A stretch of DNA of 36,768 nucleotides from Cytophagales bacterium (GTDB lineage: Bacteria; Bacteroidota; Bacteroidia; Cytophagales; Cyclobacteriaceae). The stretch is taken from positions 1 to 36,768 of the forward strand of contig JAKSDO010000244.1 of the NCBI GenBank assembly GCA_022360055.1, in the 5' to 3' direction. Under the pieces are notes generated by a model. It made no database searches and was not told the origin of the DNA. It was given only the letters and a program-made list of their open reading frames with translations. The translations under genes were made by a program, and so were the position numbers. This document shows, in pieces, positions 28,932-36,484 of this stretch; within the stretch, counting starts at the first letter, position 1; the number at the start of each line of letters is the position of its first letter.

Positions 28932-29627
28932 TTATCCGTTTTGGCTGATCATATTAAGTCGCTCGGCATCCAATATTTCAATGTGATCACTGCCGACCTT
29001 GATCAGACCATCGTCTTTAAATTTTGTGAGGATTCTGGTGATACTTTCGACCGACATACATGCCAGTTCGGCAAGCTCTTTTCTCGACAGTTGTAACGGG
29101 AAGTCGTTTGCTTTATATATTCTTTGCGACAGACATAAAAGAATATCGGCAAAACGGCCATAGGCCTGCTTTTTGGTCAAGCAGAAAAAACGGCCATATG
29201 TTATTACGGTATTCTCACTCAGAAGACTAATAATCTTAGCGGCAAATTTCGCATTTGTATTTATCAAATGTTTGAATGCATTTATCTCGATCATTCGAAC
29301 TTTTGATTTTAAATAGGCCATTGCCGAATATTGGAAAACATTGTTGCCTTCAAATAAAGTATTCAACCCTATAATATTTACCGCGGGCAGTATTTTGAGT
29401 ATAAGGGTATCGTTTCCTCCCTCCTTATATATCTTTGCAAGCCCTTCATCGAGAACGATTATATGAGATGCAAAGGCTCCTTGCTTACAGATCGTTTCCC
29501 CTTTTTCAAACTCAAGTTCAACAACATTATCTTCTACCATGGCCAACTCCCGATCCGTAAGTTCTTCAAAGCAACACATTTCGGTTTTCCCTACCGTACA
29601 GCTATTTATAATCTTGGTGCTCGACAT
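28932..29627 (-). CDS. Crp/Fnr family transcription regulator
   Basis: A 231-residue regulator with a cyclic-nucleotide-binding-like beta roll (residues ~20-140, including GETICKQGAFASHIIVLDEGLAKIY), a dimer helix (~140-170) and a C-terminal winged helix-turn-helix with LSRKELAELACMSVESITRILTKFKDDGLI (~180-209). N-terminal cysteines at 10, 18 and 19, plus Cys47, are suggestive of a redox or metal centre, but their spacing differs from the E. coli FNR pattern. The gene is divergent from the octaheme cytochrome operon, with an inverted pair of Fnr-like half-sites between them. The likely role is oxygen-, NO- or sulfur-responsive control of that operon and of itself. Confidence 0.88.
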   Translation of the reverse strand: MSSTKIINSCTVGKTEMCCFEELTDRELAMVEDNVVELEFEKGETICKQGAFASHIIVLDEGLAKIYKEGGNDTLILKILPAVNIIGLNTLFEGNNVFQYSAMAYLKSKVRMIEINAFKHLINTNAKFAAKIISLLSENTVITYGRFFCLTKKQAYGRFADILLCLSQRIYKANDFPLQLSRKELAELACMSVESITRILTKFKDDGLIKVGSDHIEILDAERLNMISQNG

Positions 29628-29653
29628 TTTTACGCTTCAAGTGCTTTCGTCAA

Positions 29654-29661
29654 CAAAATTA
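29654..29661 (-). promoter_or_regulatory. -7 promoter element of the Crp/Fnr gene
   Basis: On the minus strand this reads TAATTTTG, an exact TAnnTTTG match, 26 bases before the regulator's start codon. The adjoining Fnr-like dyad (29662-29697) covers the -33 region, a position suited to autoregulation. Confidence 0.6.
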
Positions 29662-29697
29662 GTGTAACAGATCAATATCTTATATGATCTATGTCAC
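29662..29697. promoter_or_regulatory. inverted pair of Fnr-like half-sites
   Basis: GTGTAACAGATCA (29662-29674) and TGATCTATGTCAC (29685-29697) are inverted copies matching at 10 of 13 positions, ten bases apart. The right member alone, TGAT-CTAT-GTCA, is a TGAY-N4-RTCA palindrome close to the Crp/Fnr consensus TTGAT-N4-ATCAA. It is next to the regulator's own promoter and about 78 bases upstream of the -7 element of the octaheme gene. Confidence 0.65.
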
Positions 29698-29774
29698 TTA
29701 AAAAACCCTTTTGTTTGTCTTCCATTCTTGTTCTATCTGATGCGGTATTTTTTCAAGGGCTCATTGCCCGACTC

Positions 29775-29782
29775 TAAATTTG
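29775..29782 (+). promoter_or_regulatory. -7 promoter element of the octaheme cytochrome operon
   Basis: TAAATTTG matches TAnnTTTG exactly and lies 23 bases before ATG 29806. It supports that ATG as the start and argues against the longer frame from TTG 29728, which would begin upstream of the promoter. Confidence 0.6.
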
Positions 29783-29805
29783 TAACAAGTAATTTTTTAT
29801 TTGTT

Positions 29806-31413
29806 ATGAATAGCCGAGGAAAGAGTTTTTTAGTCTCATTGTTGGTGGTGTTTATCCTTCCGGCGCTGGTCATCTACGTCATTTTTTCTTTTTACGGAAA
29901 ACGACCGGATCAACGCGCCGAAGTGCATGTTGAGTTTAGCGCCGATCATGTGGCATCAACCGATCACTCAGAATTCGAAATCCTGCAAAAAGAATTTAAT
30001 GCTCCGCAGGAAGTGACAGAAGCATGCATATCCTGTCACACCGGACGAGATGATGAGATTATGGCCAGTGCGCACTGGAAATGGGAACGAGAGGTTGAAA
30101 TTCCCGGTCGTGAAGGGAAAGTAAGTATAGGGAAAAAGAACCTGATCAATAATTTCTGTACCGGCGCTGCCGGTAACAACGGGAGTTGTATGCGGTGCCA
30201 TATTGGATTTGGCTGGAAGGATAAAAGCTTCGACTTTACCGATTCCAGGAATGTCGACTGCCTTGTTTGCCACGATCAAACAGAAACATATCTCAAGAAA
30301 AAAGGAGAAGCCGGAATGCCCGCAACGCCTGAAAACGCCTCTTTACAGTTTCCTGTTCCCAACTATAATTATGTGGCTCAAAATGTAGGTTTGCCAAAGA
30401 AACATAACTGCGGAATCTGTCATTTCTATGGTGGCGGAGGCAATAATGTAAAGCATGGAGATCTGGAGGAGGCTTTGCTGAGTTGCTCTTATGAGGTTGA
30501 TGTTCATATGTCTTCGGACAGTCTGGATATGAATTGTATAGATTGCCACAAGACGGAAAAGCACAATATTACAGGTAAGCTATACTCCGTTTCATCGGAA
30601 AATAAAAACAGAGCTACATGCGCGTCGTGCCACACCGATCGACCGCACATGGATAGGATCCTTGATGAACACTGTTTTAAGGTAGCTTGCCAGACCTGCC
30701 ATATTCCGAAATACGCCAAGGTAAACTCCACAAAAATGTGGTGGGACTGGTCGAAAGCAGGTCAACTGGATGAACATGACCAGTCATATGCCGAAACCGA
30801 TGCGGATGGAAACCACAATTACCTTTCGATAAAAGGAAGTTTTGTGTGGGACGATAATGTGATCCCCGAGTATTATTGGTTTAACGGAACCGCCGATCAC
30901 TATTTAAATTCCGATACAATATCCGAAGTCCCTGTGAAGATCAATACCCTGTTTGGATCGTATGAGGACCCAACGTCAAAGATCTGGCCCGTAAAGGTAC
31001 ACCGGGGCAAACAAATCTACGACACCGAAAACAACACACTCATCAATCTGAAATTATTTGCCAAGAATGAAGGCGAAGGTGCCTTCTGGAAAGATTTCGA
31101 TTACGATACCGCCGCCTATCTCGGCATGAAGTACAACGAACGTCCGTACAGCGGTTCTTATGATTTTATAGCGTCGGAAGCCTACTGGCCAATAAACCAT
31201 ATGGTATCTCCAAAAGAAGCCACCCTCACCTGTACCGAATGCCATTCGCGCGATGGACGGCTCTCAGGTTTGGATGATTTCTACCTTCCGGGGAGGGATT
31301 ACGCTTCGATTGTGGAGTATGGCGGTATCGGCTTTATACTACTTTCATTACTTGGTGTAATAAGTCACGGAATTATGAGAATCGCAAGCCGAAGAAAAAT
31401 TAGATCATATTGA
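29806..31413 (+). CDS. octaheme c-type cytochrome, tetrathionate reductase (OTR) family
   Basis: A 535-residue periplasmic multiheme protein with eight CxxCH motifs, at residues 74, 128, 152, 202, 244, 272, 295 and 476. The number, the overall length and the long gap before the last heme match the octaheme tetrathionate reductase family known from Shewanella oneidensis OTR, which reduces tetrathionate and also nitrite and hydroxylamine in vitro. A signal-anchor helix (FLVSLLVVFILPALVIYVIF, ~8-27) and a C-terminal helix (GGIGFILLSLLGVISHGIM, ~507-525) fix it to the membrane at both ends; soluble OTR lacks the second. The stop is two bases before the cytochrome b gene. The physiological substrate is inferred from context as an oxidised sulfur compound. 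Confidence 0.9.
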   Translation: MNSRGKSFLVSLLVVFILPALVIYVIFSFYGKRPDQRAEVHVEFSADHVASTDHSEFEILQKEFNAPQEVTEACISCHTGRDDEIMASAHWKWEREVEIPGREGKVSIGKKNLINNFCTGAAGNNGSCMRCHIGFGWKDKSFDFTDSRNVDCLVCHDQTETYLKKKGEAGMPATPENASLQFPVPNYNYVAQNVGLPKKHNCGICHFYGGGGNNVKHGDLEEALLSCSYEVDVHMSSDSLDMNCIDCHKTEKHNITGKLYSVSSENKNRATCASCHTDRPHMDRILDEHCFKVACQTCHIPKYAKVNSTKMWWDWSKAGQLDEHDQSYAETDADGNHNYLSIKGSFVWDDNVIPEYYWFNGTADHYLNSDTISEVPVKINTLFGSYEDPTSKIWPVKVHRGKQIYDTENNTLINLKLFAKNEGEGAFWKDFDYDTAAYLGMKYNERPYSGSYDFIASEAYWPINHMVSPKEATLTCTECHSRDGRLSGLDDFYLPGRDYASIVEYGGIGFILLSLLGVISHGIMRIASRRKIRSY

Positions 31414-31415
31414 AA

Positions 31416-32042
31416 ATGAAGACAAAGAAAATCGAACTTTACAGCAAATTTGAACGATTCTGGCACTGGACCCAGGGCGTATTGGTGATCTTGCTTGGCA
31501 TCACGGGGTTTGAAATCCATGGTTCATTCAGGCTTTTCGGATACGAAACGTCCGTCCGATTGCATTCCGCAGCCGCATGGGCTTTTTTGATCCTGATCGC
31601 CCTGGCAATATTCTGGATGTTTATTTCAAAGCAGTACAAAAACTTTATTCCGACAAGTAAAAACATTAAAGCCCAAATCAATTACTACATCTCAGGTATT
31701 TTTAAAGGAGCGGCGCACCCTACAAAAAAGACCAAACTGGATAAACTCAATCCCCTTCAACGACTGGTTTATCTCGGCCTTATCATTTTGGTCTTTCCCG
31801 TTCAATTGATCTCAGGTTTTCTTTATATGTATTATCACTACCCAAATAAGCCCGTCGAATTAACCGGATTGGAAACCGTAGCAATAATACATGTTATAGG
31901 CGCATTTTTGCTCGTCGTGTTCTTAATCGTTCATTTATACCTCATTACGACAGGCACAACTCCACTTACAAACCTTAAGGCCATGATCACCGGCTTTGAG
32001 GTGGTTGAAGAAGACGAAGAATTAATAAAAAACCAGGTTTAA
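31416..32042 (+). CDS. cytochrome b membrane subunit (cytochrome b561/PhsC-like)
   Basis: A 208-residue inner-membrane cytochrome b with four transmembrane helices. The candidate ligands for two b hemes are His17 (FERFWHWTQG), His50 (VRLHSAAAW), His159 (AIIHVIGAF) and His173 (LIVHLYLIT), the pattern of the Ni/Fe-hydrogenase, formate dehydrogenase and thiosulfate reductase cytochrome b group. It would oxidise menaquinol and pass electrons to the octaheme protein encoded two bases upstream. ATG 31416 is preferred over an overlapping TTG at 31410. The acidic C-terminal tail (VVEEDEELIKN) should be cytosolic. Confidence 0.9.
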   Translation: MKTKKIELYSKFERFWHWTQGVLVILLGITGFEIHGSFRLFGYETSVRLHSAAAWAFLILIALAIFWMFISKQYKNFIPTSKNIKAQINYYISGIFKGAAHPTKKTKLDKLNPLQRLVYLGLIILVFPVQLISGFLYMYYHYPNKPVELTGLETVAIIHVIGAFLLVVFLIVHLYLITTGTTPLTNLKAMITGFEVVEEDEELIKNQV

Positions 32043-32052
32043 AATATATGTT

Positions 32053-32565
32053 ATGAGGAAAATCGCTTTAGTGATAACTGTGTTTGCACTCTTTTCCGGT
32101 TGTAATAGAGTCAAACAATTTGCAACCCCGGAGCAAATGGTAGAACAAGCTCTGAAAATTGTAAAAACTATTTCCGTCGATGAGCTCAACAAGCTTATGG
32201 ACAGCGAGGAGATTTACACTTTAATTGATGTGAGACAAAAGAGTGAACATTATCACGGATTTATACCGGGTTCACTTGTCATCCCAAGAGGAAGTATTGA
32301 ATTTCTTATTGGAAAAGAAAAATTCTGGGAGGAAGAAGGTTTGTACATGCCTCTGAAAGATGAGAAGATCATACTTTACTGCCGCAAAGGTAACCGAGGG
32401 TCAATGGCCGCATCATCGTTGGTGCAATTAGGCTATAAAAACGTATTTACACTGGATGGTGGATGGAAAAAATGGGAACTAACTTATCCCGATTTAACCG
32501 ACAAAAACCTTGACATGCTATCCGGAGGCGGTGCTGAAGCACACGATGACGGTGGAGGATGTTAA
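32053..32565 (+). CDS. rhodanese-domain lipoprotein
   Basis: A 170-residue periplasmic protein. The signal peptide ends in a lipobox (VFALFSGC, acylated Cys17). Residues ~40-155 are a single rhodanese domain: ISVDELNKLM, LIDVRQKSEHYHGFIPGSLVIP, and the active loop YCRKGNRG with nucleophile Cys110, which matches the canonical sulfurtransferase loop. A Gly/His/acid-rich tail ends in a terminal Cys (GGGAEAHDDGGGC), perhaps a metal- or sulfur-handling tail. It follows the cytochrome b gene by ten bases and is part of the same operon. It would carry persulfide sulfur at the membrane face near the reductase. Confidence 0.9.
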   Translation: MRKIALVITVFALFSGCNRVKQFATPEQMVEQALKIVKTISVDELNKLMDSEEIYTLIDVRQKSEHYHGFIPGSLVIPRGSIEFLIGKEKFWEEEGLYMPLKDEKIILYCRKGNRGSMAASSLVQLGYKNVFTLDGGWKKWELTYPDLTDKNLDMLSGGGAEAHDDGGGC

Positions 32566-32597
32566 CTTTTACTCAAACAAATTAATTCTTTAAAACA

Positions 32598-33596
32598 ATG
32601 AAAAAGCTTTTAGACATATTATTCGTATTTGCGATGGCAAACATCGTATTCATAACTTCTTGCAGGGAAAGCAGCGATGATCCCGCGGCAAAAACGGAAT
32701 TTGAATTATTGACCGAACACCTTGTCGCGACTGAAATGGATCTGGATCACGTAATCAAATCGGCCGGCGGGAACAAATTTGTTTTTGCTCCAACCGATGC
32801 GGCAGATGTCGCCGGAAAGTATATAATTGACATCCGATCCGAGGCCGATTTCAATGAAGGTCACATTGACGGTGCCGTCAATGTCCCGGTTGGAAGTATC
32901 CTAACAGAAGCTGCAAAAGCCGGCGATAAGGATATTTTGGTTGCGTGCTATACCGGCCAGACGGCTTGCTATGCGACTGCTCTTTTGAGATTGTATGGCT
33001 ATCACGACGCGCAAGCCTTAAAGTGGGGAATGAGCAGTTGGAATGGCAGCGCAAACAAATGGTCTGCAAATACAGGTGATTCCGGAGCCGGTCAACTTTC
33101 TACGGATGCCGCACCCGATAATGTCGAATACGGAAATCCAACTGTAAATACGGGTAAAAGCGACGGCGAAAGTATCCTGAAGGCCCGCGTGGAAGCAGTC
33201 ATTTCAGAATGGGGGAATGCAACGGTAAGCAGCGCCGATGTCGTGGGTGCTCCGGGCGATTATTTCATAAACAATTATTTCAGCTCGGCGCATTATACCG
33301 GTTTTGGTCATGTAGACGGAGCGGTGAGAGTAAATCCGCTAAAAATTGAGGACAGCTCAATAAAATTCCTTGATCCGTCTAAAAAAGTTGTCACATATTG
33401 CTATACGGGACAAACATCAGCGGTGATTACGGCATTTTTGAGAGTGCTCGGCTATGATGCGAAGAGTATGCTGTTCGGAATGAACGGATTAAACCATGCC
33501 AATACGTTTTGGACCAATGGCGGCGAAAATGGTACTGCAGTTTCAAATCATTGGGGAGTAAACGCCCATCCTAATGATTTCCCGCTGATAAACTAA
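32598..33596 (+). CDS. double-rhodanese lipoprotein with CYTGQT loops
   Basis: A 332-residue lipoprotein (ITSC lipobox, Cys22) with two rhodanese domains, residues ~70-160 and ~195-315. Both carry the same unusual active loop, ACYTGQTA with Cys117 and YCYTGQTS with Cys268, followed by closely similar sequence (LLRLYGYHDAQALKWGMSSWN and FLRVLGYDAKSMLFGMNGLN), which indicates an internal duplication. Typical rhodanese loops carry Arg or Lys after the Cys; this one has Tyr-Thr-Gly-Gln-Thr, so the electrostatics of sulfur transfer should differ. Both nucleophile Cys are kept, so both domains may be active. The gene is 32 bases after the first rhodanese gene. Confidence 0.88.
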   Translation: MKKLLDILFVFAMANIVFITSCRESSDDPAAKTEFELLTEHLVATEMDLDHVIKSAGGNKFVFAPTDAADVAGKYIIDIRSEADFNEGHIDGAVNVPVGSILTEAAKAGDKDILVACYTGQTACYATALLRLYGYHDAQALKWGMSSWNGSANKWSANTGDSGAGQLSTDAAPDNVEYGNPTVNTGKSDGESILKARVEAVISEWGNATVSSADVVGAPGDYFINNYFSSAHYTGFGHVDGAVRVNPLKIEDSSIKFLDPSKKVVTYCYTGQTSAVITAFLRVLGYDAKSMLFGMNGLNHANTFWTNGGENGTAVSNHWGVNAHPNDFPLIN

Positions 33597-33611
33597 ACTA
33601 TAATAAACCCT

Positions 33612-33634
33612 GAGTCCCGAGCATGTCGGGATTC
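33612..33634 (+). terminator. intercistronic hairpin before the porin gene
   Basis: GAGTCCCGA (33612-33620) pairs with TCGGGATTC (33626-33634) with one G-T pair and a five-base loop. No T-run follows, so partial termination or protection of the upstream mRNA end is more likely than full termination. Confidence 0.45.
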
Positions 33635-33650
33635 AATCTTCCTTAACACG

Positions 33651-33714
33651 ATGAAACCGGCAGGGCCGGAGCAAATTCAAAACACACAAGCATGATTATA
33701 TTGATCGGTGTGTC
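33651..33714 (+). repeat. dispersed 64-bp repeat inside the sulfur operon
   Basis: This matches the minus strand of 20471-20536 from ATGAAACCGGCAGG to GTGTGTC, with one two-base indel and three substitutions. ACACAC and GTGTGT within it could form a stem. It lies in the 141-base gap between the double rhodanese and the porin gene. Confidence 0.8.
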
Positions 33715-33737
33715 AGTAACTTAAAAAATATAAACGA

Positions 33738-34838
33738 ATGAAAAAGGTGATAATGATGATTTCAATGGCTGGTCTTCTGTGCCTTCCCAATTTGGTTGAG
33801 GCTCAAGGTTGCGCCGCTCCGAGCTCCGATGAAGGAGTAACGATTTGGGGATATCTCCAGCCTGAGTTTGCGATGAAAAACATGGGAGGCACAGATCCAA
33901 ATACCGAGGCTACCGCTGCCTTCCAGTTCCGAAGAATGCGAATAGGGGCCATGGGAAATATTCCGTATGATTTCGGATATTATGTACTTCTGGAAACAAG
34001 TCATTTCCTGACTCCCGACAAAACCGGAGCCTGGATTTTAGATGCATTTGTAACGTATAACAGATTTAAATACGCTACTATGGCTCTCGGTTCGTTCAAA
34101 ATACCTTTTGGGCGCGAGTTGAGCATGCCATGTCACGGATTATACACCATCAATAGGTCCAATTTTGTAGATGAGCTCACTGCAAGTCTTGACGGATTCA
34201 ACAGAGATCTCGGATTTATGCTGCTCGGCGGAAACGATTCGACGTTTTTCACCTATAGATTGGCCTTAACCAACGGGAAAGGACTTTCTGCGGTTGATAA
34301 TGATCTATACAATACCTATGCCGTTACGGCCAGAGCCACGATTCAGCCGTTACCCGGCTTTTATTTGGGAGCAAGCGCAAGATACGGCGAGAATCCCCCG
34401 GAAGCGGAAGGCGTTGAAGACAAGGACGATAGAGTTCGATATGGTTTTGACGCACAATACAGCTTTAAAAACTTTACCGTTTTGGGTGAATATATCCACG
34501 GAAAAGACGAAGGTTCGTATACCGAAGGCGGTGGTTGCGGAGGAGATCCCGTTACAAAAGTTGGAACAAATAATGCCGACGGTTTTTATCTGATGGCCTT
34601 ATACAGAACCAATTCAAACTTCGAACCGGTCTATAAAATAGAAAGATACGAAACCGTCCGAAGTGACGGCGGAGATGTACCTGTCAAAGACGAAAACCTG
34701 GGTACATGCCAAACGTTTGGGTTAAACTATTATCCGAACGATTGGACGAGGCTCCAGCTCAACTATATATACCGGGTTGAGGAACCAAAAGAGGTAGATA
34801 ATGACATGCTTCTTCTGCAAGTTCAGGTGAGGTTTTAA
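33738..34838 (+). CDS. OprO/OprP-like outer-membrane porin
   Basis: A 366-residue outer-membrane barrel. The signal peptide (VIMMISMAGLLCLPNLVEAQ) is followed by the family's first strands (GVTIWGYLQPEFAMKN; FQFRRMRIGAMGNIPYDFGYYVLLE), LGSFKIPFGREL near residue 118, and a C-terminal strand ending LLLQVQVRF with the terminal Phe for assembly. OprP-type porins favour anions, which would suit entry of tetrathionate, thiosulfate or sulfite. This is a suggestion from family and location. Four Cys outside the signal peptide, in a region GGGCGGDP among others, are unusual for a barrel. The gene is 141 bases after the double rhodanese and 16 bases before the next sulfurtransferase gene. Confidence 0.85.
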   Translation: MKKVIMMISMAGLLCLPNLVEAQGCAAPSSDEGVTIWGYLQPEFAMKNMGGTDPNTEATAAFQFRRMRIGAMGNIPYDFGYYVLLETSHFLTPDKTGAWILDAFVTYNRFKYATMALGSFKIPFGRELSMPCHGLYTINRSNFVDELTASLDGFNRDLGFMLLGGNDSTFFTYRLALTNGKGLSAVDNDLYNTYAVTARATIQPLPGFYLGASARYGENPPEAEGVEDKDDRVRYGFDAQYSFKNFTVLGEYIHGKDEGSYTEGGGCGGDPVTKVGTNNADGFYLMALYRTNSNFEPVYKIERYETVRSDGGDVPVKDENLGTCQTFGLNYYPNDWTRLQLNYIYRVEEPKEVDNDMLLLQVQVRF

Positions 34839-34854
34839 TAAAAAAACAGAAATT

Positions 34855-35700
34855 ATGAAATACTTAAATATCTTAATAGCAATACGACTGCTGATCCCGG
34901 CAAATTTCACAAACGGACAGGATTTAATTACTGCCCAGGAATTGTCAAAGACCTTGAAAAACGGAAATATGGTTTTGGTCTCGACAAGACCGGCCTCAGA
35001 TTATAAAAAAGTGCATATTACGGGAGCCGTTCACGTAGATCATACGGAACTATATCGAGACGGTCCCGTGAAAAATATGCTAAAAAGTGCCGATGAAATT
35101 GCGGCGATCCTGGGTTCAAAAGGCATAACGGAGTCGAAAGCCATTGTCCTTTATGATGACGGTTCGGGTAAATATGCCGGAAGATTATACTGGATCTTAA
35201 GTTATTTGGGAGCTGGTAATGTGAAGATCCTGGACGGACATATGGATGCCTGGAAGGCAGCCAGAAAACCGGTGACTAAGAATCCGTCAAAGATTGTACC
35301 GGCAACTTTCACCGCCAGGACGGACAGATCCAAAATCGCTACGATGGATGAGGTAAAAGCAGGGGGAGCAACGATAATAGATGCCAGGTCTCCCCAGGAG
35401 TTCAACGGAGCTGCGGCAACGGAGCTCAGAAAAGGACATATCCCGGGAGCGATCAACATCGAATTTAAAAATATGATGGATGCAAAAGGGAAAATGAAAT
35501 CAGCCGAAGCATTGAAAAAGATCTTCGCCGCTGCGGGAGTAACCAAAGACAACAAGGTGATTATATACTGTGAATCGGGAGTAAGGGCCGGAATTGTATA
35601 TTTTGCACTCACATCGGTTCTTAACTATTCAAATGTAAAGATATATGACGGCGCATATCTTGAATGGCAGGCAAATGCAGGCAATAAGGTAGAAGCGTAA
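34855..35700 (+). CDS. periplasmic thiosulfate sulfurtransferase (tandem rhodanese)
   Basis: A 281-residue exported sulfurtransferase. The signal peptide ends near ANFTNGQ (residue 22). The N-terminal rhodanese domain (~25-135) has LYDDGSGKYAGR where the catalytic loop should be, so it lacks the Cys and is structural. The C-terminal domain (~150-275) has IDARSPQEFNG, HIPGAINIEF and the active loop YCESGVRAG with Cys239. This inactive-active pairing is the standard arrangement of TST/SseA-type enzymes, which move sulfane sulfur from thiosulfate to a thiol or cyanide. It is the last gene of the operon, followed by a terminator at 35772. Confidence 0.92.
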   Translation: MKYLNILIAIRLLIPANFTNGQDLITAQELSKTLKNGNMVLVSTRPASDYKKVHITGAVHVDHTELYRDGPVKNMLKSADEIAAILGSKGITESKAIVLYDDGSGKYAGRLYWILSYLGAGNVKILDGHMDAWKAARKPVTKNPSKIVPATFTARTDRSKIATMDEVKAGGATIIDARSPQEFNGAAATELRKGHIPGAINIEFKNMMDAKGKMKSAEALKKIFAAAGVTKDNKVIIYCESGVRAGIVYFALTSVLNYSNVKIYDGAYLEWQANAGNKVEA

Positions 35701-35863: not shown

Positions 35864-36484
35864 ATGAGTAAAAAGATACTGTTCGGAATTGTCGCGGTAG
35901 GCCTGCTCGCAATTACATTATATAACATCAAAGGTACAAGTACAAGATCAGAAGGGTACGCGGATAAAATTTTAGCCGAAAGACAGGAAAAAGACAGATC
36001 ATTTAAAGAAGCTGACGACTCCCCCCTTTCCGAAGAGCAAAAGCGCACATTTGAAAAATTAACTTATTTTCCCATAAATGAAAAGTATCGGATCACAGGT
36101 GATTTTCATCGCAATTCCGGAAACGAAATCGTAAAGATGGCAATTACGGATGGCTCCCGACGGGAGTATGTTGTATTCGGCCGCATCCATTTCCATCTTG
36201 AAGGCAAAGAACTGGATATAACCGTTTACAAACCGGTAAAATCGGAGCCTGGGTATTTGTTTGTCCCGTTTTACGATAAAACCTGCGCCGATCTTACCTA
36301 CGGTGGAGGGCGGTACGTGGAACCGGTGCTGCTGGAGGATGGCTCGTTGGAGATTGACTTTAATTTAGCCTATAATCCATATTGTGCTTACAATCATAAA
36401 TATCGATGTCCGATCCCCCCGCAGGAAAATAATTTGGATGTATCCATACTGGCAGGAGAAAAAATCCCTGATTTTATTCATTAG
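35864..36484 (+). CDS. DUF1684 family protein
   Basis: A 206-residue protein with an N-terminal hydrophobic signal or anchor (ILFGIVAVGLLAITLYNI) and no lipobox. The DUF1684 domain follows the conserved order: RSFKEADDSPLSEEQKRTFEKLTYFPIN, then FVPFYDKTCADLTYGGGRYVEP, then the signature DFNLAYNPYCAYNHKYRCPIPPQEN, and LAGEK near the C-terminus. The family's function is unknown; the conserved Cys and His residues suggest a metal or small-ligand site. It has its own promoter candidate and is a single gene between the sulfur operon terminator and pheT. Confidence 0.9.
   Translation: MSKKILFGIVAVGLLAITLYNIKGTSTRSEGYADKILAERQEKDRSFKEADDSPLSEEQKRTFEKLTYFPINEKYRITGDFHRNSGNEIVKMAITDGSRREYVVFGRIHFHLEGKELDITVYKPVKSEPGYLFVPFYDKTCADLTYGGGRYVEPVLLEDGSLEIDFNLAYNPYCAYNHKYRCPIPPQENNLDVSILAGEKIPDFIH

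Follow-up and report, generated by a model that had tools for sequence, protein, structure and literature searches.

The physiological role of OTR, a family of octaheme c-type cytochromes, has long been unsettled. The Shewanella protein accepts tetrathionate, nitrite and hydroxylamine as substrates (PMC4484225), and in a study of a sulfidic spring OTR was counted as a tetrathionate reductase in 73 genomes from 14 phyla (PMC9040765). For Thermosulfurimonas dismutans an OTR and the adjacent cytochrome b (TDIS_1882–1883) are proposed to constitute a membrane-linked tetrathionate reductase, and the available part of that paper mentions neither a rhodanese nor a porin as partner (PMC4911364). Judging by a term count, a 2026 survey of disproportionation markers leaves cytochromes unmentioned (PMC12998232). 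Here we describe an operon on contig JAKSDO010000244.1 of a Cytophagales bacterium, where a stretch of 36,768 nucleotides (the window) was analysed. In this operon the genes for OTR and cytochrome b are followed by genes for three exported rhodanese proteins and an OprP-type porin (POR), in the order OTR, cytochrome b, RHO1, RHO2, POR and RHO3, and are preceded by a gene for a Crp/Fnr-family regulator on the opposite strand. We consider it fairly probable that the operon encodes a quinol-linked periplasmic sulfur-respiration module, in which cytochrome b would pass electrons to OTR for the reduction of a sulfane-sulfur oxyanion, with the rhodaneses as carriers. Respiration of tetrathionate or thiosulfate would be the most likely role, and the main rival is the same chemistry in the oxidative direction.

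The sequence-only reading had proposed this six-gene run with its divergent regulator, and every gene was recovered where it had been placed, all six on the plus strand and with concordant Pfam and NCBIfam calls. The OTR gene (29806–31413) probably starts with the ATG at 29806, giving 535 residues, in preference to a TTG at 29728; the OTR of the nearest relative, L044, has 533 residues. The protein belongs to the OTR family with a score of 577.9 bits against TIGR04315 (cut-off 375), carries eight CxxCH motifs and could be aligned with the structure of the Shewanella OTR (1sp3) across 430 residues (E 3e-119). Counted on that alignment, its NNVKHGD motif falls on Lys153 of 1sp3, the equivalent of which we take to be the ligand of the active-site heme, and the motif is kept in all 132 OTR proteins compared (131 KHG, one KHA). 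Hydrophobic segments are found near both ends of the protein. There is no SirA/MccA model among the Pfam and NCBIfam matches of the operon, a dedicated comparison not having been made. The cytochrome b gene (31410–32042) encodes a b561-type membrane subunit (PF01292, E 8e-27) that is the presumed link to quinol; its score against the thiosulfate reductase PhsC model PRK15006 is 104.2 bits, below the cut-off of 204.

Conserved linkage, the absence of which would have counted against the sequence-only reading, was found in a scan of named genomes. Among the best 80 of 89 OTR-encoding stretches, the entire layout including the divergent regulator is present in eight (L044–L047, L049–L051 and L053, of which L050 and L051 are near copies), and two further layout loci, L048 and L052, are interrupted by contig ends. 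The regulator is divergent from the operon in all eight complete relatives and co-directional with OTR in L052. In a tree of 107 of the 132 OTR proteins, the rows having been thinned beforehand, the window and ten layout relatives form a single clade (SH-aLRT 100). As 5 of the 18 rhodanese matches of the whole genome fall within the operon stretch, and the gene order recurs in the relatives, the clustering is above chance. One carrier of the operon is Carboxylicivirga linearis FB218 (L047), and in L050 a run of NrfD, YedE, YedE and rhodanese genes lies immediately upstream of the regulator. OTR scores over the cut-off in 3 of 291 genomes of the order of the window, its own included, and the other two (L124 and L125) have a layout with YedE; the operon is therefore patchily distributed and may have moved horizontally.

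The neighbours of OTR genes were compared in a set of 132 loci, nine duplicates having been removed. Within 4 kb of OTR a rhodanese is found in 66 loci, YedE in 42 and cytochrome b in 108. Since the neighbour models were derived in part from the same loci, the comparison by distance and not the raw count is the control: 88 rhodanese genes lie at 0–4 kb and 5 at 4–9 kb (933 and 890 kb scanned, respectively), with 42 and 5 for YedE, and 109 and 0 for cytochrome b. The window and 60 added loci (58 of the 59 other places over the cut-off in the phylum sample, the remaining one, in G028, being on a contig as long as that of L065, and two from the order sample) comprise 37 with YedE and rhodanese within 4 kb, 13 with cytochrome b only and ten with neither, and the rhodanese-porin layout is unique to the window among these 61. 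Other partners point to sulfur as well. In Calditrichia, OTR and cytochrome b are followed by a MerR-type gene, a PhsA-like enzyme, an FeS protein, NrfD and YedE, and one such locus also holds a porin of the POR kind. In two loci of Neomarinimicrobiota OTR and a PhsA-like gene are divergent, and triple rhodanese genes are located just upstream of OTR in 11 loci, mostly labelled Desulfobacterota, the gene being split into two open reading frames (ORFs) in two of these loci. The YedE label requires at least six changes on the starred branches of the OTR tree, where gains and losses are indistinguishable; the YedE genes of L076 go with a second OTR gene at that locus. Sulfur partners are thus present on several separate OTR branches, though not necessarily through as many independent gains.

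Several further features of these loci were observed. The triple rhodaneses belong to L111–L118, L120, L122 and L123, and several of these loci encode a small protein of about 115 residues that looks exported and has CK at its end, for which the one scanned (L118) gave no Pfam match. A short OTR clade (L094, L096, L106, L119, L125, L166 and L167) has genes for YedE and for a 7- to 9-heme protein nearby, the latter containing a cytochrome-b-like part in those scanned, and the only OTR of the clade that was checked (L094) has no C-terminal hydrophobic segment. In the Anaerolineae metagenome-assembled genomes L088 (from 10001) and L089 (5990–7372) the OTR ORFs are lengthened to 12 and 15 CxxCH motifs. 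L129 (7883–8332) encodes a regulator of the MerR type whose C-terminal half is rich in Cys and which may sense thiols or sulfur; there are 16 genes of this kind at up to 4 kb from OTR.

The three rhodanese proteins contain 1+2+2 domains (PF00581), and four of the five carry a catalytic Cys, as the sequence-only reading had counted. RHO1 (32053–32565) has a single domain with C110, RHO2 (32598–33596) has two domains with CYTGQT loops (C117 and C268), and RHO3 (34855–35700) has two domains with the catalytic Cys in the second alone (C239), the position being occupied by Asp in the first. The N-termini of RHO1 and RHO2 are lipobox-like and that of RHO3 is signal-like with no lipobox, as read by eye. 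Both Cys of RHO2 are invariant across eight aligned orthologues, and in the nine sequences with a clear start the N-terminus reads C-K/R followed by acidic residues, a pattern lacking in RHO1. Bacteroidetes lipoproteins have a similar K-(D/E)2 signal for surface export (PMC5080379), and RHO2 may therefore face outward.

RHO1 ends with Gly-Gly-Cys, encoded at 32554–32562, and does so in all ten orthologues, five of which have Asp in place of the catalytic Cys. The same ending is found in YedE-rhodanese fusions near OTR, where GGC lies among the last eight residues in 37 of 40 and GGLC in the other three; none of the 40 has a Cys in the catalytic column, and six have one elsewhere in the domain. 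Taking together the 40 fusions, the ten RHO1 proteins and six others (three of which end with EGC, not GGC), the catalytic Cys is missing in 51 of 56 tailed proteins and present in 70 of 75 tail-less domains, the five exceptions being domain 1 of RHO3. A Fisher test of tail against loss of the catalytic Cys gives 1e-24, which is not a true probability because the rows are related. GGC is absent from the last five residues of all 1645 other ORFs picked mechanically from the same loci, and in the genome of the window the tail is present in 2 of 15 rhodanese proteins, RHO1 and one encoded on contig 129. The two tailed proteins of locus L246 each have a single Cys, the final residue. The core of RHO1 matches rhodanese folds and residues 156–170 have pLDDT below 50, as for a disordered tail. 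RHO1 therefore has the sequence features of the working principle of SoxY, a flexible tail with an invariant Cys, the loading of which with sulfur is putative; it is not a SoxY by family, with PF00581 alone in Pfam and a tail ending with GGC instead of GGCGG. A tail shared by all rhodaneses of OTR loci was considered and rejected, since the triple rhodaneses lack it.

Next to the RHO2 gene is that of POR (33738–34838, PF07396), which has three conserved Cys (25, 132 and 267). The model of POR is a barrel of 16 long strands with a mean pLDDT of 69.5 and poorly defined loops, and OprP (2o4v) ranks second in the fold search. The three Cys are kept in all 11 RHO2-linked copies and missing from the porin found in Calditrichia at a locus without RHO2. 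By strand order, and with modest confidence, Cys132 would be in the third outer loop; the model is not good enough to place the Cys within the pore. The Gly-Gly-Cys tails, the absence of the catalytic Cys from most rhodaneses that have one, and the three Cys of the porin are new here; they move the likely role of RHO1 from sulfurtransferase towards sulfur carrier, the tail being the putative carrying element. In a literature search no title or abstract start described an operon of OTR, rhodanese and porin genes or a rhodanese with a Gly-Gly-Cys tail, and as the listings were incomplete this does not prove absence. The cysteine-bearing porin and the putative carrier tail are new leads, and a Gly-Gly-Cys tail on a rhodanese that has usually lost its catalytic Cys yields a prediction on sulfur trafficking in the periplasm that is both simple and general.

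Parts of the operon also occur away from OTR. Relatives of RHO2 (E up to 1e-20) were found in 31 of 395 phylum genomes, that of the window included, and one region was fetched from each of 16 of them. RHO2 adjoins a ten-heme gene, 0–47 bases away, in 13 of the 16 regions, a POR-like porin gene in two (L246 and L247, from genomes without an OTR match) and a paralogue in tandem in one; use of RHO2 as a marker of OTR was ruled out by the 13 ten-heme pairs. In these (L248–L258, L260 and L261) the double rhodanese of the RHO2 type is often near 6-, 10-, 14- and 28-heme genes, and the ten-heme gene gave no NCBIfam match in the one that was scanned. L246 encodes on a single strand, in order, a PhsA-like enzyme, an FeS protein, NrfD, two YedE, the two tailed rhodaneses, a Crp-like regulator, two RHO2 and the porin. 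With the RHO2-porin pair in a PhsA-like/YedE run without OTR, the import module seems able to serve a molybdopterin-type or an octaheme reductase alike.

The genome of the window (G000) itself carries two other sets of sulfur genes. Contig 129 (L212, 6635–13255) encodes a PhsA-like enzyme, an FeS protein, NrfD, two YedE halves, a rhodanese with a GGCS end and a Cys-free rhodanese, and would by sequence be a second sulfur-reduction cluster; the PhsA-like enzyme scores 464.7 bits, below the PhsA cut-off of 694. Contig 108 (L213, 3437–7381) has genes for two halves resembling YedE, for single rhodaneses and for a metallo-hydrolase-like protein that contains two rhodanese domains, adjoining a small ArsR-like regulator identified by eye, and looks like a sulfide detoxification set. 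None of the genes of the YTD disproportionation cluster (yedE, tusA, dsrE) is among the Pfam and NCBIfam matches of the operon.

A sulfur substrate is favoured because the linkage is conserved, because YedE, PhsA-like or triple-rhodanese partners are found on OTR branches separate from one another, and because a RHO2-porin pair without OTR sits among PhsA-like and YedE genes; for the operon clade such a role is well supported by linkage. From these genes and motifs we infer substrate, direction, carrier role and regulation as follows. POR would pass a sulfur oxyanion through the outer membrane, RHO2 and RHO3 would accept or hand on sulfane sulfur, and RHO1 would bear it on its flexible tail. 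Cytochrome b would oxidise menaquinol and deliver the electrons to OTR, which would reduce an S–S bond of the substrate, most likely converting tetrathionate to thiosulfate, or thiosulfate or a persulfide further. The separate PhsA-like/YedE/rhodanese cluster of the same genome could then take the product on, and the Crp/Fnr-type regulator should switch the operon on under anoxia. More tentatively, and with the balance against it, OTR might act on protein-bound sulfur: rhodanese-like domains without the catalytic Cys would have been remade as carriers with a Gly-Gly-Cys arm, which are charged at the three-Cys porin, RHO2 or YedE and swing into the heme site of OTR. If true, this would be a reductive counterpart of the Sox cycle, common to octaheme and PhsA-type reductases.

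Some observations weigh against a sulfur-respiring module. The sulfane-sulfur substrate of the sequence-only reading gains from the linkage and the YedE, PhsA-like and triple-rhodanese partners, but 65 of the 132 OTR loci, some of them ended by the contig, lack rhodanese and YedE genes within 4 kb (five of the 65 have them at 4–9 kb), and sulfur linkage is not common to every OTR. Four of the 88 near rhodanese genes are on the strand opposite, the neighbour models share loci with the test as said above, and 12 Chlorobi-type loci carry cytochrome b as the sole partner of OTR. Caldithrix abyssi, where otr is present, is reported not to have grown with the predicted sulfur acceptors or with tetrathionate (PMC5317091). 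The otr of Deferribacter autotrophicus has been proposed to serve nitrite (PMC6896113), and the Shewanella enzyme, as noted, reduces nitrite and hydroxylamine too.

An unlikely alternative, though the strongest, is that OTR oxidises thiosulfate or sulfane sulfur bound to RHO1, with electrons flowing via cytochrome b to the quinone pool in a Sox-like manner. Chlorobium species are known sulfur oxidisers, and the OTR-cytochrome b pair is also found in Chlorobium; yet the Chlorobi-type loci (L172–L183) have no rhodanese, nor YedE, within 9 kb. Likewise the Gly-Gly-Cys tail resembles the arm of SoxY (PMC6067878), whereas the PhsA-like partners are reductases by family resemblance. The regulator also speaks for reduction. 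Its gene (28932–29627, minus strand) encodes a Crp-type HTH (PF13545) and a cNMP domain (PF00027), and a putative Fnr-like half palindrome, TGATCTATGTCA, with the pattern TGA-N6-TCA, is located in the gap between regulator and OTR (29685–29696, strand unassigned). Such a site is found in or near this gap in all ten loci examined, L052 having been left out, a count given without a chance expectation. The extended site TTGAY-N4-RTCAA is present in six of the ten, the window not among them. Against the Fnr model the regulator scores 52.7 bits (cut-off 228), and several Cys are kept among the orthologues.

Less likely again is that OTR reduces nitrite or hydroxylamine, for ammonification or detoxification, with the rhodaneses serving something else. 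The activities of the Shewanella enzyme, the proposal for Deferribacter and the conserved active-site Lys motif would fit this, but the operon partners are sulfur genes and the genome has its own NrfA over the cut-off with an NrfH-like neighbour, together with a NapA-like protein below the cut-off. NrfA is present in 10 of the 11 genomes of the operon clade, which weakens a nitrite role, and in the phylum sample (E up to 1e-50) in 27 of 55 genomes with OTR as against 35 of 340 without. As the two co-occur, OTR as a stand-in for NrfA was ruled out, and a side activity on nitrite would remain compatible with these gene contents. A molybdopterin enzyme is matched in nine of ten named operon genomes, for which no completeness is stated; the genome of C. 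linearis FB218 gave no molybdopterin oxidoreductase match. The conserved sulfur genes next to OTR, the separate NrfA of the genomes and this one genome without a molybdopterin match make the question of the role of OTR directly testable.

Selenite or tellurite reduction is improbable. The extHIJKLMNOPQS cluster of Geobacter similarly combines a rhodanese (ExtH) and a phosphate-porin-like gene (ExtI) with multiheme cytochromes, and loss of extI lowers selenite and tellurite reduction (PMC5877670). RHO3 reaches 77.6 bits with the ExtH model and POR 56.7 bits with the ExtI model, far under the respective cut-offs of 200 and 150, which excludes an Ext-type operon as the identity of the locus; the cytochrome differs, and no further Ext family is among the NCBIfam matches of the operon. 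Least probable of all is detoxification or sensing of sulfide or polysulfide, since the genes of contig 108, which indicate that sulfide stress may matter, look like the detoxification set of this genome, and an eight-heme protein linked to cytochrome b and provided with a porin would exceed such needs.

Downstream of the operon is a gene for a DUF1684 protein (35864–36484), found at the same position only in L044, and extension of the operon into it was ruled out on this ground. The flanking genes of L044 have the same size and strand as those of the window, the flanks not having been aligned. A contaminant contig is unsupported, as the Tex gene of the contig is the single full-length copy in the genome, and the contig appears to belong to its genome.

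Several known systems are close to the locus. It shares with the OTR of Shewanella oneidensis the TIGR04315 family, the eight CxxCH motifs and the equivalent of Lys153, but that protein is periplasmic and interacts with STC (PMC4484225), whereas the OTR of the window has hydrophobic ends and is accompanied by cytochrome b, rhodaneses and a porin. In Dethiobacter alkaliphilus an octaheme cytochrome is likewise clustered with rhodaneses and is upregulated with thiosulfate; it is SirA-like with 20–23% identity to Otr/SirA, and the available part of the paper mentions no porin (PMC10376724). SoxY uses the Cys of a C-terminal arm (GGCGG) as sulfur carrier (PMC6067878), which is similar to the role suggested for the tail of RHO1; unlike SoxY, RHO1 has a rhodanese fold, and no Sox family is among the Pfam and NCBIfam matches of the operon. 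Desulfurivibrio dismutans has a Psr operon with a triple rhodanese as well as genes for porin, rhodanese and YedE, and there the exported rhodaneses, the porin and YedE have been proposed to supply a periplasmic reductase with sulfur; that reductase is Psr (PMC12142623), and in the window it would be an octaheme cytochrome.

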